A DNA stretch of 64,000 bases, taken from Streptomyces sp. NBC_00285. Its GTDB lineage: Bacteria; Actinomycetota; Actinomycetes; Streptomycetales; Streptomycetaceae. The stretch covers positions 8,370,001 to 8,434,000 of the forward strand of contig NZ_CP108055.1 in assembly GCF_036174265.1 (NCBI RefSeq), written 5' to 3'. Numbering within the stretch: position 1 is the first letter of the stretch; each line of letters begins with the position of its first letter. The translations under genes were made by a program, and so were the position numbers. The notes under the pieces were generated by a model, which was not told the origin of the DNA, searched no databases, and worked only from the letters and a program-made list of their open reading frames with translations. This document shows positions 5,031-64,000 of this stretch, piece after piece.

Positions 5031-5345
5031 CTGGGGTCCCTTGCATTGGGATAGGGCGTAACGCCCGCCATAGTGGCCCACTCCCACCGGCCCTCAGGGG
5101 GTTTCGGGGCAAGAGGCCGCCAAGGAAGTGCAAGGGAGTTGCCCAGGGCAGCGTATTGCTCGAACTGCCGCTTGAGGGGCGGGAGTTGAGTTCGAATAAG
5201 ACTACCCGTACGGGTGGTTCAACGGAAAGTTCCTGCGAGAAGTGAGGAAGTTGTGAATTGCCTGTAACCGAACGGGCGTCCCACTCGGCGTTGATCTTAC
5301 GGGACGGGGAACCTGTACCCGCGCGGGGGTCCCTCTGAGGGGGCC

Positions 5346-59484: not shown

Positions 59485-61134
59485 TCAGTCTTCGTACCGC
59501 GGAGTCCACTGGGTGCGGGCGACCGCCGCCCGCAGTTCCTCCTCGGTCGCCTCCGGCGCGACACCGTCCTCCACGGCCGCCACCGCCGCGGCCACGGCGA
59601 TCTCCCGGGCGGCCTCCCGCATGTCCCGCAGCGGCGGCAGCAGCGGCGCGGGCACACCGTCGTCCGGCGCGGACCGTACGGCACACCGGCCCACCGCGCG
59701 GGCGGCGGCGACCATCATCCGGTCGGTGACCCGGCTCGCCCGGGAGGCCGTCACCGCGAGGCCGACGGCCGGGAAGACGTACACGTTGTTCGCCTGGGCC
59801 ACCGGCACCTCACGGCCGTCGATCTTCAGGGGCGGGAACGGCGAACCGGTGGCGACCAGCGCCCGGCCGTCCGTCCAGCGAGCCAGGTCGGCGGGGTCGG
59901 CCTCGGCGTGCGAGGTCGGATTGGAGAGCGGGAAGATCACCGGCCGCTCGCACGTGGACGCCATCTGCCGGACGATCTCCTCGGTGAAGGCGCCCTTCGC
60001 GGTGGACAGTCCGATCAGCACGGTCGGCTCCACCCGGCGGACCACCTCGGCCAGACCGTACGACTCCCGCTCGTCGTCGCGGGCGTAGACGCGCTGCTCC
60101 TCGCTGAGCCCCTCGCGCGAGGACACCAGCAGCCCGTCGACGTCCACGAACCAGAAGCGTGAGCGTGCCTCGTCCTGCGACAGACCCTCGTCCGTCATCG
60201 CCGTACGGATCATGTCGGCCACCCCGACCGCCGCGGAGCCCGCACCGAGGACCACGATCCGGTGGTCGGCCGGCCGGGTGCCCGCGAGCGTCGTGGCCGT
60301 GGTCAAGGCCCCGAGCGCGACCGCGGCCGTGCCCTGGATGTCGTCGTTGAAGGTCAGCAGCCGGTCCTGGTAGCGGGTGAGGATCGGGCGGGCGTGCGCG
60401 GTCGCGAAGTCCTCCCACTGGAGCAGCGTGCCGGGCAGTTCGGCCTCCACCGCCGACACCAGCGACTCCACCAGTTCGTCGTAGGCGGCGCCCGTGACGC
60501 GGCGCTCCCGGCGGCCCAGGTAGTGCGGGTCGGCCAGCAACTCCTCGTTGTCCGTTCCGGCGTCCAGCAGGATCGGCAGGGTGCGGGCCGGGTGGATCCC
60601 GCCGATGGCGGTGTAGAGACTGAGCTTGCCGATCGGGATGCCCATGCCGCCGACGCCCTGGTCACCCAGTCCCAGGATGCGCTGACCGTCGGTGACGACG
60701 ATGACGTCCACGTCCGGATGCGGGCGGTTGCGCAGGATCTCCCGGAAGCGGTGCCGGTCCTCGTACGACAGGAACAGCCCGCGCGGGCGGCGGTAGATCT
60801 CGCTGAAGCGCCGGCAGGCCTCGCCCACGGTCGGCGTGTAGACGACGGGCAGCATCTCCTCCAGATGGCCGGTGACCAGGCGGTGGAAGAGGATCTCGTT
60901 GGTGTCCTGCAGCTGGCGCAGATAGATGTGCCGGTTCAACGGCTTGTCGTAGCCGAGGAACGCCTCGTAGGCGCGCTCGGCCTGTTCGTCCAGGGTCTCC
61001 ACGGCGGGCGGAAGCAGCCCGTCGAGGCGGTACGCGGCCCGCTCCTCGGGGGTGAAGGCGGTGCCCTTGTTGCGCAGGGGGTCCGCGAGCAGTGCCGTGC
61101 CACGGGGGTCACGGGGGGATTCGTTCACTGTCAT
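59485..61134 (-). CDS. NAD-dependent malic enzyme (SfcA/MaeA-like)
   Basis: 549 aa from the ATG at 61134 (GAAGG upstream; an in-frame start 39 nt earlier is rejected). Length and motifs fit the large malic enzyme family: VVYTPTVGEACRRFSEIYRR, VVTDGQRILGLGDQGVGGMG, FNDDIQGTAAVALGAL (metal-binding Asp pair), and the NAD Rossmann motif IVVLGAGSAAVGVADMI. It decarboxylates malate to pyruvate, replenishing pyruvate from the TCA cycle. NAD preference is a family inference. Divergent from rsbQ. Confidence 0.94.
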   Translation of the reverse strand: MTVNESPRDPRGTALLADPLRNKGTAFTPEERAAYRLDGLLPPAVETLDEQAERAYEAFLGYDKPLNRHIYLRQLQDTNEILFHRLVTGHLEEMLPVVYTPTVGEACRRFSEIYRRPRGLFLSYEDRHRFREILRNRPHPDVDVIVVTDGQRILGLGDQGVGGMGIPIGKLSLYTAIGGIHPARTLPILLDAGTDNEELLADPHYLGRRERRVTGAAYDELVESLVSAVEAELPGTLLQWEDFATAHARPILTRYQDRLLTFNDDIQGTAAVALGALTTATTLAGTRPADHRIVVLGAGSAAVGVADMIRTAMTDEGLSQDEARSRFWFVDVDGLLVSSREGLSEEQRVYARDDERESYGLAEVVRRVEPTVLIGLSTAKGAFTEEIVRQMASTCERPVIFPLSNPTSHAEADPADLARWTDGRALVATGSPFPPLKIDGREVPVAQANNVYVFPAVGLAVTASRASRVTDRMMVAAARAVGRCAVRSAPDDGVPAPLLPPLRDMREAAREIAVAAAVAAVEDGVAPEATEEELRAAVARTQWTPRYED

Positions 61135-61310
61135 GTTCGTTCGCCTTCCCGGGATACCCACGCACGGGCACAAAGCCGTGGAAAGGAACGGTCATCACCT
61201 GGTCGAGGACAGGTGAGGTGGTGTGTCCGGGCGGTCGGCGGGATGCGGAGGAACACGGGGCGTGGACGGGGTCGTGACGGAGCGGTCCGGCGGCACGAGA
61301 GACTGGGGCC

Positions 61311-62114
61311 ATGGATGTCGCTCGCAGGAACAACGTCACGGTCACCGGCAACCCCGGGGGCCGGACGGTCGTACTGGCCCACGGCTTCGGATGTGACCAG
61401 AACATGTGGCGGCTGACGTTGCCCGCCCTCGTCGACCACTACCGGGTGGTGCTGTTCGACTACGTGGGTGCGGGCCGCTCGGACCTGTCCGCGTTCTCGG
61501 AGAAGCGTTACTCGTCCCTCGACGGGTACTCCCAGGACGTGGTGGACATCTGTGAGGAACTCGACCTGTGTGACGCGGTCTTCGTCGGGCACTCGGTCAG
61601 CGCGATGGTCGGGGTGCTGGCCGCCGACCGGGCGCCCGAGCGCATCGGAGCGCTGGTCATGATCGCCCCGTCGCCGCGCTACATCGACGACGACGGCTAT
61701 CGGGGCGGGTTCAGTGAACAGGACATCGACGAGCTCCTCACCTCCCTGGAGTCCAACTATCTCGGCTGGTCGGCCGTGATGGCGCCGGTGATCATGGGCA
61801 ACGCCGAGCGGCCGGAACTGGGGGAGGAGCTGACGAACAGCTTCTGCGCCACCGATCCCGACATGGCGCGCGTCTTCGCTCACACCACGTTCCTGTCGGA
61901 TTCGAGGGACGACCTGAAGACCGTGAAGGTGCCGACGCTGGTACTGGAATGCACCCAGGACGCCGTCGCCCCCCGAGAGGTCGGCGCCTACGTCCACCAG
62001 GCGATCCCCGGTTCGGCCCTGGTCACGCTCGACGCGACCGGGCACTGCCCGCACCTGTCGGCGCCCGAAGCCACCAACGAGGCGATCACCGCCTTCCTGG
62101 CCCGACTGAGGTGA
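61311..62114 (+). CDS. rsbQ: RsbQ-like alpha/beta hydrolase
   Basis: 267 aa. It closely follows B. subtilis RsbQ: TVVLAHGFGCDQNMWRLTLP, FDYVGAGRSDLSAF, nucleophile Ser95 in FVGHSVSAMVG, Asp217 in CTQDAVAP and His245 in ATGHCPHLS. The segment MIAPSPRYIDDDGYRGGF also matches RsbQ specifically. RsbQ is needed to activate the PAS-containing phosphatase RsbP in energy stress and is related to strigolactone-type receptors. Its stop overlaps the phosphatase start, matching the rsbQP order in Bacillus. Confidence 0.92.
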   Translation: MDVARRNNVTVTGNPGGRTVVLAHGFGCDQNMWRLTLPALVDHYRVVLFDYVGAGRSDLSAFSEKRYSSLDGYSQDVVDICEELDLCDAVFVGHSVSAMVGVLAADRAPERIGALVMIAPSPRYIDDDGYRGGFSEQDIDELLTSLESNYLGWSAVMAPVIMGNAERPELGEELTNSFCATDPDMARVFAHTTFLSDSRDDLKTVKVPTLVLECTQDAVAPREVGAYVHQAIPGSALVTLDATGHCPHLSAPEATNEAITAFLARLR

Positions 62115-63421
62115 TGTGCCGCATCGGACAGCAACCCGACCCCCAGGACTCTGAGGGCGCCAGATCGTCGGATGCGGCATTCGCCGCGCTGCTGGAGGAC
62201 AGTGCGGAAGAGCTGTACGACAACGCACCGTGCGGATACCTGTCCACGCTGATGGACGGCACCATCGCCAGGATCAACTCGACGCTGCTGGGCTGGCTCG
62301 GCCTGCGGCGCGAGGCGGTGGTGGGCCGGATGCGGTTCACCGACCTGCTCACCGTGGGCGGCAGGCTCTACCACGAGACCCACTTCGCGCCACTGCTGCG
62401 GATGCAGGGCAGTATCAGCGGCATCGCCCTGGAGACCAGACGGGCCGACGGCGGCCGTATCCCGGTCCTCGTCTCCTCCGTGGTCAAGCACGGCAGCACC
62501 GGCGAACCCCAGCTGATCCGCACCACCGTCTTCGACGCCCGGGACCGCCGGGCCTACGAGGAGGAACTCCTGCGCGGCCGGAAAACGGCCGAAGAAGCAC
62601 GCAGACGTTCCGAGGCGGACCGGGCCCGGCTCCAGGAAGCCCTCGCCGTGCTCCAGCAGTCACTGCTGCCCGCCACCCTGCCGGCGGTACCCGGGATGGA
62701 AGCGGCCGCTCACTACCACACCGCCTCTCCCGACCGGCTCGGCGGCGACTTCTACGACGTCTTCCCCATCGACGGCACCCGCTTCGCCTTCTTCCTCGGA
62801 GACGTGTGCGGCAAGGGCCCCCAGGCCGCCGCGGTCACCTCCCTGACCCGCTACACCCTGCGCGCCGCAGCTCTGCACGACCCCGACCCCGTCGCCGCCC
62901 TGTCGACCCTCAACACGGTGCTTCACGAGCGGTACACCGGCAGCGGTGACCCCCGCTACTGCACGACCGTCTTCGGCACCCTCGAACCGGGCCCCGGTAC
63001 CGGGCAGATCACCGTCCGCCTCGCCGCGGGCGGCCACCCGCCCGCCCTCGTCCTGCGTGCCGACGGCACCGCCGGCTACCTGCCCACCCCCGGCGGCTTC
63101 CTCGTCGGTGCCCTGCCCGACGCGACCTTCGTCACCGCCACGACGGTCCTGGCCCCCGGCGACACGCTTCTGCTCTACACGGACGGTCTCACCGAAGCCC
63201 GTACCGGCGAGGCCCGCGGGAGCCGCTACGGGGACGAGGCCCTGCTGGCCTTCGCCACCACTCAGGCGGGTACACCCCCGCAGGTCGTCATCGACGCCCT
63301 GACCGCCCTGCTGGACGGCTTCGGCGACGGCCTCGATGACGACACCGCACTCCTGGCCCTCGGCGTCCCGACCCGCAGACCCGCGACGGAGAGCACGCGA
63401 TCCGCGCGCCGACACCGATGA
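62114..63421 (+). CDS. rsbP: RsbP-like PAS domain PP2C-type phosphatase
   Basis: 435 aa from ATG at 62114, whose A is the last base of the rsbQ TGA; a GTG at 62111 is equally placed. An N-terminal PAS domain (~30-140; ELYDNAPCGYLSTLMDGTIA, then GWLGLRREAVVGRMRFTDLL) is followed by a coiled coil (~155-185) and a SpoIIE/PP2C phosphatase with its metal Asp residues (LGGDFYDVFPI, FFLGDVCGKGPQAAAV, LLYTDGLTEART, DDDTALLALG). It would dephosphorylate a STAS antagonist such as the next gene product. Its last ~17 codons overlap the 29-nt repeat phase described separately. Confidence 0.9.
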   Translation: MCRIGQQPDPQDSEGARSSDAAFAALLEDSAEELYDNAPCGYLSTLMDGTIARINSTLLGWLGLRREAVVGRMRFTDLLTVGGRLYHETHFAPLLRMQGSISGIALETRRADGGRIPVLVSSVVKHGSTGEPQLIRTTVFDARDRRAYEEELLRGRKTAEEARRRSEADRARLQEALAVLQQSLLPATLPAVPGMEAAAHYHTASPDRLGGDFYDVFPIDGTRFAFFLGDVCGKGPQAAAVTSLTRYTLRAAALHDPDPVAALSTLNTVLHERYTGSGDPRYCTTVFGTLEPGPGTGQITVRLAAGGHPPALVLRADGTAGYLPTPGGFLVGALPDATFVTATTVLAPGDTLLLYTDGLTEARTGEARGSRYGDEALLAFATTQAGTPPQVVIDALTALLDGFGDGLDDDTALLALGVPTRRPATESTRSARRHR

Positions 63422-63544
63422 ACGCATGATGAGCCCGCTGAAACGGGAGTGCACGCGGTGAGCGCGCTGACAGCGGAGAGCACACGGTGAACCCCCTGAT
63501 ACGGAAGAGCACGTGATGAACCTGGTGACAGCGGAGAGCACGCG
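63371..63544 (+). repeat. Six 29-bp tandem units carrying four chained mini-ORFs before the STAS gene
   Basis: Units 1-4 start at 63429, 63458, 63487 and 63516. The STAS start at 63545 is the next phase position. Two diverged units (63371-63399 and 63400-63428) lie in the end of rsbP; 15 bases ending at 63401 equal those ending at 63546, five periods away. Each of units 1-4 opens with ATG or GTG and runs 9-10 codons to a TGA overlapping the next start. The peptides are MSPLKRECTR, MSALTAESTR, MNPLIRKST and MNLVTAESTR. Most units hold GGAGAG or a variant before the next start. Confidence 0.92.
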
Positions 63545-63883
63545 ATGAGTCCGCTGGAGATCGCCGTCCGGGAGGCTGCGAGCGGTCCTGTTCTGGAGAT
63601 CACCGGCGAACTCGACTACACGAGCGCCGGCGAACTGCGGACAGCGCTCGCCACCGTCACGGTCCGACCGGGCCTGCGGCTCGTCCTGGACCTCGCCGGC
63701 ATGACGTACTGCGACTCCAGCGGCATCACCGCCCTGCTCGCCGCCCGCAACCACGCCCTCGCCGCCCGGGCGGACATCGCCCTCGCCGCCGTCCCCGCCG
63801 ACACCGTGCGCGTCCTGGGCATGGTCGGCCTCGACCAGGTCTTCCCCCTCCACCCTGACACCGCCACGGCCACCGACCCCTGA
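63545..63883 (+). CDS. STAS-domain anti-sigma factor antagonist
   Basis: 112 aa. Complete STAS fold: LEIAVREAASGPVLEITGEL, DYTSAGELRTALATVTVRPG and LVLDLAGMTYCDSSGITALL, where the serine of the DSSG motif is the expected phosphorylation site. It should bind an RsbW-type kinase/anti-sigma factor when dephosphorylated by the RsbP-like protein upstream. The GGAGAG ribosome site and start ATG are the last copy of the 29-bp repeat phase, and the preceding mini-ORF ends in ATGA overlap with it. Confidence 0.92.
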   Translation: MSPLEIAVREAASGPVLEITGELDYTSAGELRTALATVTVRPGLRLVLDLAGMTYCDSSGITALLAARNHALAARADIALAAVPADTVRVLGMVGLDQVFPLHPDTATATDP

Positions 63884-63886
63884 GCC

Positions 63887-64000
63887 ATGACGACTCGTCC
63901 GCCGAGGCCGGAGCAATCGTGCTTCATCCGGACAAGGTGAGCCCGCTGGTCTCCCGGGCCAACGGCACCGCACAGGATGCCGATTCCCTGCGCATTCCCT
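63887..64000 (+). CDS. Possible short ORF and start of a further gene (cut by window end)
   Basis: Four bases after the STAS stop, an ATG (63887) opens a 17-codon frame ending in TGA at 63938-63940. That TGA overlaps a GTG at 63937 that opens a frame running off the window; it begins MSPLVSRANG, and its first 13 bases nearly match the STAS start region. The continuing frame is too short to identify; an RsbW-type kinase gene would be expected here. Both frames are uncertain. Confidence 0.35.

Follow-up and report, generated by a model that had tools for sequence, protein, structure and literature searches.

Tandem 29-bp repeats string short overlapping reading frames between an rsbP-like gene and a STAS-domain gene in Streptomyces sp. 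NBC_00285

In Streptomyces sp. NBC_00285, an rsbP-like phosphatase gene and the STAS-domain gene behind it are joined by six 29-bp units repeated in tandem and in register (63384-63557, plus strand). Through this array a series of short open reading frames (ORFs) leads without a break from the rsbP stop codon to the STAS start codon. Positions refer to the window, the 64,000-nt stretch analysed here, from a 10.3-Mb genome in two contigs. Comparison with related genomes lends good support to the view that the array arose by lineage-specific, in-place tandem amplification of an ancestral ATGA junction between the two genes. In the reading that we consider fairly probable as a whole, this junction was amplified where it stood, the mini-ORFs act as stepping stones for ribosomes, and the accident was tolerated through the frame logic of the unit.

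The array lies within a set of three genes (Table 1). The RsbQ label of the first is presumptive, by analogy to the rsbQ-rsbP operon of B. subtilis. Its stop codon (TGA, 62112-62114) overlaps the ATG of the rsbP-like gene (TGATG, 62112-62116), so that this boundary also runs stop-to-start and the three genes appear laid out for coupling. The Pfam scores of the rsbP product were taken on a longer frame from 61949, the start at 62114 being inferred; the STAS start is backed by an MSPLKI start that recurs in relatives. A consensus scan of 61000-64000, of a kind that leaves out other promoter types, detected no promoter or terminator.

Table 1. Genes, short ORFs and the decayed repeat unit around the rsbP-STAS junction (window coordinates; ORF spans include the stop codon)
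Feature	Position	Strand	Remarks
RsbQ-like alpha/beta hydrolase gene	61311..62114	+	Pfam Abhydrolase_6 2.5e-23
rsbP-like gene, PAS + SpoIIE/PP2C phosphatase	62114..63421	+	Pfam SpoIIE 1e-46, PAS_9 3e-6
Unit -5, decayed	63384..63412	+	former stop-start site 63400 now ATCC, inside rsbP
3-codon ORF MNA	63418..63429	+	no ribosome site
Mini-ORF 1 MSPLKRECTR	63429..63461	+	ATG start; alternative start ATG 63426; no ribosome site
Mini-ORF 2 VSALTAESTR	63458..63490	+	GTG start; ribosome site GGGAG
Mini-ORF 3 VNPLIRKST	63487..63516	+	GTG start; ribosome site GGAG
Mini-ORF 4 MNLVTAESTR	63516..63548	+	ATG start; alternative start GTG 63513; ribosome site GGAAGAG
STAS-domain gene, anti-sigma factor antagonist type	63545..63883	+	ATG start; STAS 2.8e-15, STAS_2 7.3e-15; GGAG site

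The 29-bp repeat noted in a preliminary description of this DNA is borne out: its two TRF rows (29 bp x 5.9 copies, 63387-63556, score 135; 58 bp x 2.8 copies, 63386-63548, score 161) are the top scores among the 21 rows of the window, the next being 69. The same description counted four units; six are present, one of them decayed inside rsbP and the last including the STAS start codon. Aligned in the RTGA register, units are 0.69-0.79 identical; units -4 to -1 share a mean identity of 0.65 with each other outside RTGA, and the self-identity of the junction at shift 29 is 0.68. One palindrome (63454-63475) overlaps the array.

The mini-ORFs have the starts and overlapping stops originally described (GTGA, GTGA, TGATG or GTGA, ATGA), and their lengths of 10, 10, 9 and 10 codons fall within the range given. 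Each has its own RTG start and a stop in or just before the RTGA of the next copy. Every link of the chain is an overlap of 4 or 1 nt (-4 or -1 spacing), the single TGATG link (-1) turning into GTGA (-4) if the start at 63513 is used. An extra ATGA ties the chain to rsbP: the stop codon (TGA, 63419-63421) overlaps ATG 63418, and the three-codon ORF that begins there ends in a TGA overlapping ATG 63426/63429. The ribosome sites previously ascribed to most units are present before mini-ORFs 2-4 (duplexes of -8.0, -6.6 and -4.6 kcal/mol) and missing before mini-ORF 1 (-1.1 kcal/mol). The STAS site (-6.6 kcal/mol) is stronger than that in 87% of 102 relatives; the relatives' median is -3.15 kcal/mol.

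That the ORFs are chained follows from the repeat length. When a segment of length L is copied across an ATGA, the next TGA falls L+1 bases past the start and is in frame if L is 2 mod 3; with L at 0 mod 3 the downstream gene merely gains a longer start, and with L at 1 mod 3 the chain is broken. The 29-bp unit (2 mod 3) holds a ribosome site, a start, the first STAS codons and the last rsbP codons, so that every copy creates an ORF with a STAS head and an rsbP tail that runs into the next one. On this frame logic the preliminary description was correct.

Relatives of the locus were collected among the matches listed for 392 congeneric genomes and then for 392 including 160 new ones (G416-G575); added to these were named contigs, 61 genomes searched with array plus STAS, and fetched stretches. 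The junction analysis started from 157 loci (L002-L160, minus the duplicates L061 and L071). In 125 of them a STAS match accompanied the phosphatase end motif; the 32 others lacked one of the two and were dropped. Removal of identical junctions left 112 distinct ones including our own, hence 111 relatives, some of them paralogues or members of a more remote STAS subfamily. The rsbP stop shares 4 nt with the STAS start (ATGA/GTGA) in 82 of the 111. Nine have an open gap of 10-68 nt, indicating that tight coupling is dispensable. One of these nine (L132, genome G474) is bridged by a four-codon ORF, ATGAGCGGCACATGA, which overlaps on both sides and looks like an independent one-step relay.

Counted from the phosphatase motif, the STAS start most often lies 65 nt away (38/111; range 53-140). 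In the window this distance is 210 nt, exactly 65 + 5x29, and the modal length places the ancestral stop-start in unit -5. Self-identity at shift 29 does not exceed 0.40 in any of the 111 relatives, so the array is in none of them; a search for the unit before STAS genes of relatives, as proposed earlier, thus yielded no copies (0/111, judged by length and this self-identity), and the suggested tuning of STAS output by copy number finds no support in these relatives. The closest single junction (L072, genome G446) is 86% identical to the array consensus. Outside the RTGA core, the consensus unit has a median identity of 60% to the 82 single junctions, as against 32% to the 376 other RTGA sites of the window. 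The ends of the unit are the host genes' own tail (rsbP) and head (STAS), and the array has one match in its own genome (40 of 54 first-look candidates scored). The best STAS protein besides that of the window is 85% identical (5.8 billion searched; longest contig 7.8 kb). The direct overlap in relatives, the junction length and the 86% match together argue that the junction was amplified in place.

The rsbP tail seems prone to repeats. In L023 (genome G296) it has apparently been expanded by in-frame repeats, QTTDPLTSDPQTTAPQTTDP, giving a junction of 140 nt, and the tail in L072 contains DPDPDP.

Given the 4-nt overlap typical of the relatives, it is sensible to read the locus as initially suggested, with a possible relay that ends at STAS, and a relay by termination-reinitiation is plausible. 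A ribosome finishing rsbP would re-initiate at the overlapping start, make 3-11 codons, and be carried to STAS by repeated stopping and re-initiation along the mini-ORFs. According to a study in E. coli (PMC10666635), a stop codon 38 nt upstream of the next start lowers re-initiation by 80-90% in two gene pairs and abolishes it in a third, shorter gaps have pair-dependent outcomes, and re-initiation needs no more of the upstream gene than its final 15 nt. Judging from these gap experiments, a bare gap of 123 nt would block re-initiation at STAS and uncouple the gene, whereas an overlapping chain of 9-11-codon ORFs should not. With an efficiency below one at each step, serial re-initiation would lower STAS relative to rsbP; in addition, the ribosome sites of units -3 to 0 (-8.0 to -4.6 kcal/mol) probably admit fresh ribosomes. 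STAS output is thus likely to depend less strictly on rsbP than it does in relatives. The starts at 63418 and 63426/63429, lacking ribosome sites, are a point against the relay. We see the amplification itself as a chance event that could be tolerated thanks to the frame logic; an altered ratio of STAS to rsbP would follow as a side effect, and there is no need to assume adaptive tuning.

Chain length was rejected as evidence by itself, chance yielding chains of five: a second chain of five overlap-linked mini-ORFs, taken as chance, starts at 5128 of the window, and chains of at least five mini-ORFs appeared in 15 of 40 Markov-simulated 64-kb sequences. The in-register repeat and its end-to-end fit between two genes are not chance. 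In neutral simulations in which identical units diverged to about the observed extent, with -4 and -1 links allowed, the chain was kept in 16-20% of runs. As a test for selection on the chain, neither this result nor that of a version counting strict links alone (three of four observed) is significant, and survival of the chain is therefore no proof of selection.

These numbers bear on an alternative that we regard as doubtful though of some weight, namely that the array is a neutral leftover. STAS, given its good ribosome site, may start on its own; it would then be served mainly by fresh ribosomes at its GGAG, the mini-ORFs being incidental and coupling to rsbP lost or weak. Such a state would fit the strength of the STAS site among relatives and the survival of the chain that is expected in about 17% of neutral runs. 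Yet units -4 to -1, diverged as they are (0.65), retain the TGA in all four cases and an RTG at each unit start, and the chain is restored where rsbP now stops.

Further evidence on this point comes from similar arrays in other genomes. Out of 392 genomes, 16 have five RTGA motifs at 29-bp steps (29 matches) and two have the reversed pattern (3 matches). At period 26, four sites occurred in 24/126 genomes (reversed control 4/126); at period 32, four sites in 10/126 (3/126); and at period 23, five sites in 9/150 (3/150). The control period of 28 (four sites) gave 19/81 genomes against 0/81 for the reversed pattern, so that RTGA arrays exceed their reversed counterpart at a non-chaining period too, and are at least as frequent there as at period 26. 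Comparison of periods 29, 26, 32 and 23 with 28 revealed no enrichment of RTGA arrays at periods of 2 mod 3. That such arrays are common at the periods searched, chaining or not, fits the neutral leftover as well; taken with the neutral survival of the chain, the period-28 arrays argue neither for selection nor for a bias to chaining periods.

Most other RTGA arrays do not appear to be relays. Using open frame and GC3 to judge anchoring in genes at both ends, we found one anchored array in 15 other genomes at period 29, one in 24 at period 26, none in 9 at period 23, none in 10 at period 32 (without one 8-bp-repeat array of G074) and one in 19 at the control period of 28. In the window's own array the downstream end alone is flagged, since its five RTGA begin 7 nt past the rsbP stop. 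In ten loci (L183, L232, L233, L236, L241, L249, L255, L166, L170 and L198), the first unit holds the end of an apparent upstream gene and the last unit has no clear coding-frame start; these are possibly amplified gene ends. A period-28 array (L266, genome G056) lies between two apparent genes, with unchained units and an uncertain downstream start, indicating that junction arrays also arise outside chain-permitting periods. Our own genome holds a 14-bp repeat array, GTGACCTGCTGGTT, with an RTGA in each unit (L275, G000:C1:5369515-5369630, minus strand), which is not flagged as a gene junction.

The anchored array at period 29 (G075) connects a gene pair different from rsbP-STAS. A BlaI-type repressor gene (PF03965, 5.6e-23) ends in the first ATGA and is followed by four mini-ORFs (MNHAGRGETS, VNHAECGKTS twice, VNHAECGEAP); the last GTG is the start codon of an M48/M56-type peptidase gene (VIYAVWV; PF01435, 5.1e-12; PF05569, 1.3e-4, below the family cut-off), the frame of which also permits a start 15 nt further up. 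Among 199 genomes, the best-matching relative (G166) carries a single ATGA and is 116 nt (4x29) shorter. Of 29 other loci (L202-L230), 18 have a -4 and four a -1 overlap, the peptidase start being extrapolated from tblastn; two lack a peptidase match and five have other values. In the period-26 array (G084), five RTGA separate an ABC permease gene (PF00528, 2.1e-32) from an MFS gene (PF07690, 2.9e-31). In 17 of its 19 related loci both genes align and the MFS match lies beyond the permease stop; all 17 have an RTGA at the permease stop in frame with MFS; the MFS start region of these relatives would be some 10-61 residues longer than in G084.

A single overlap in relatives, with an exact multiple of the unit inserted, is thus found at rsbP-STAS and at blaI-M56, while the ABC-MFS case is less clean owing to the longer MFS start region of the relatives. 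BlaI-M56 and ABC-MFS are two unrelated Streptomyces operons with an anatomy similar to that of rsbP-STAS. In the RTGA register, units are 0.79-1.00 identical in G075 and 0.92-1.00 in G084; having the lowest unit identity, the rsbP-STAS array looks the oldest of the three. We think it unlikely that Streptomyces repeatedly makes ATGA junctions into serial relays by 2 mod 3 duplication, with copy number setting the ratio of the two proteins. Were this so, it would amount to an evolvable translational rheostat built without a foreign element.

The remaining explanations carry little weight. It is very unlikely that the array works as DNA or RNA, in the form of a binding-site array or structured RNA with ORFs present by chance: for all that direct repeats are typical of binding-site arrays and that a palindrome overlaps this one, the RNA fold is unexceptional (z = -0.23), the Rfam match is sub-threshold only (E 0.53, snoRNA family) and the unit is already explained by the ancestral junction. 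RNA structure and an Rfam element were both rejected on these values. Barely credible is the idea, raised in the preliminary description, that the peptides themselves are the product; three of the four mini-ORFs have ribosome sites, but the sequences are STAS head plus rsbP tail, as the duplication dictates, and have drifted, and 0/111 relative junctions have the array. Close to refuted is the insertion of a mobile repeat like the mycobacterial interspersed repetitive units (MIRUs), short dispersed elements that land on start codons. The coupling logic is shared (a unit ORF in -4 overlap with the next gene; PMC12548453), but the array has its one match in the genome, its unit is the host junction, with the genes' tail and head as its ends, and the G075 units match another gene pair.

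In-place amplification of the junction with a tolerated relay, the reading we favour, offers a sequence example of a spacer that grows between coupled genes while the coupling frame stays intact; whenever 3k-1 bp spanning an ATGA are duplicated, bridging ORFs come with the copy. Such arrays are natural series of successive re-initiations and would make re-initiation efficiency and any attenuation of the second gene directly measurable.

Among the matches listed (titles and abstract starts, with few subscription papers), no paper describes tandem copies of a host stop-start junction, a weak negative. Several known systems share parts of the design. Coupling short upstream ORFs or minigenes and bicistronic designs (PMC12548453; axe-txe, PMC8708949) also hand over ribosomes from a short ORF, but as described there they are single or paired and lie in leaders or are designed, whereas the array consists of serial copies of a gene-gene junction. 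The TAACTGA direct repeats of Beggiatoaceae resemble the array in lying in tandem between genes near start codons, some of them over the upstream stop codon (PMC4679880); they are seven-base units with stops in all frames, proposed as regulator-binding sites, and in the accessible text of that report, unlike here, no ORF chain is described. ATGA/TGATG termination-reinitiation pairs have stop-start overlaps identical to those of the array and of 82/111 relatives, but there one overlap joins two genes, and here five mini-ORFs stand in series. Often tandem, MIRUs measure 53 or 77 bp, each of which is 2 mod 3. A 2025 review (PMC12548453) describes them as short, apparently mobile repeats, found in many mycobacteria, that insert at start codons and do little harm there, since their ORF is coupled at -4 spacing. 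Like a MIRU, the array unit has an ORF overlapping the start and stop of its neighbours (-4 spacing, with one link -1 or -4); unlike a MIRU, it is not dispersed over several loci (one match in G000) and is a copy of the host junction, of 29 (or 26) bp, rather than foreign to the flanking genes. The array would best be classed as a variant of the MIRU coupling logic that arose in place, and it suggests a route to MIRU-like repeats without transposition.
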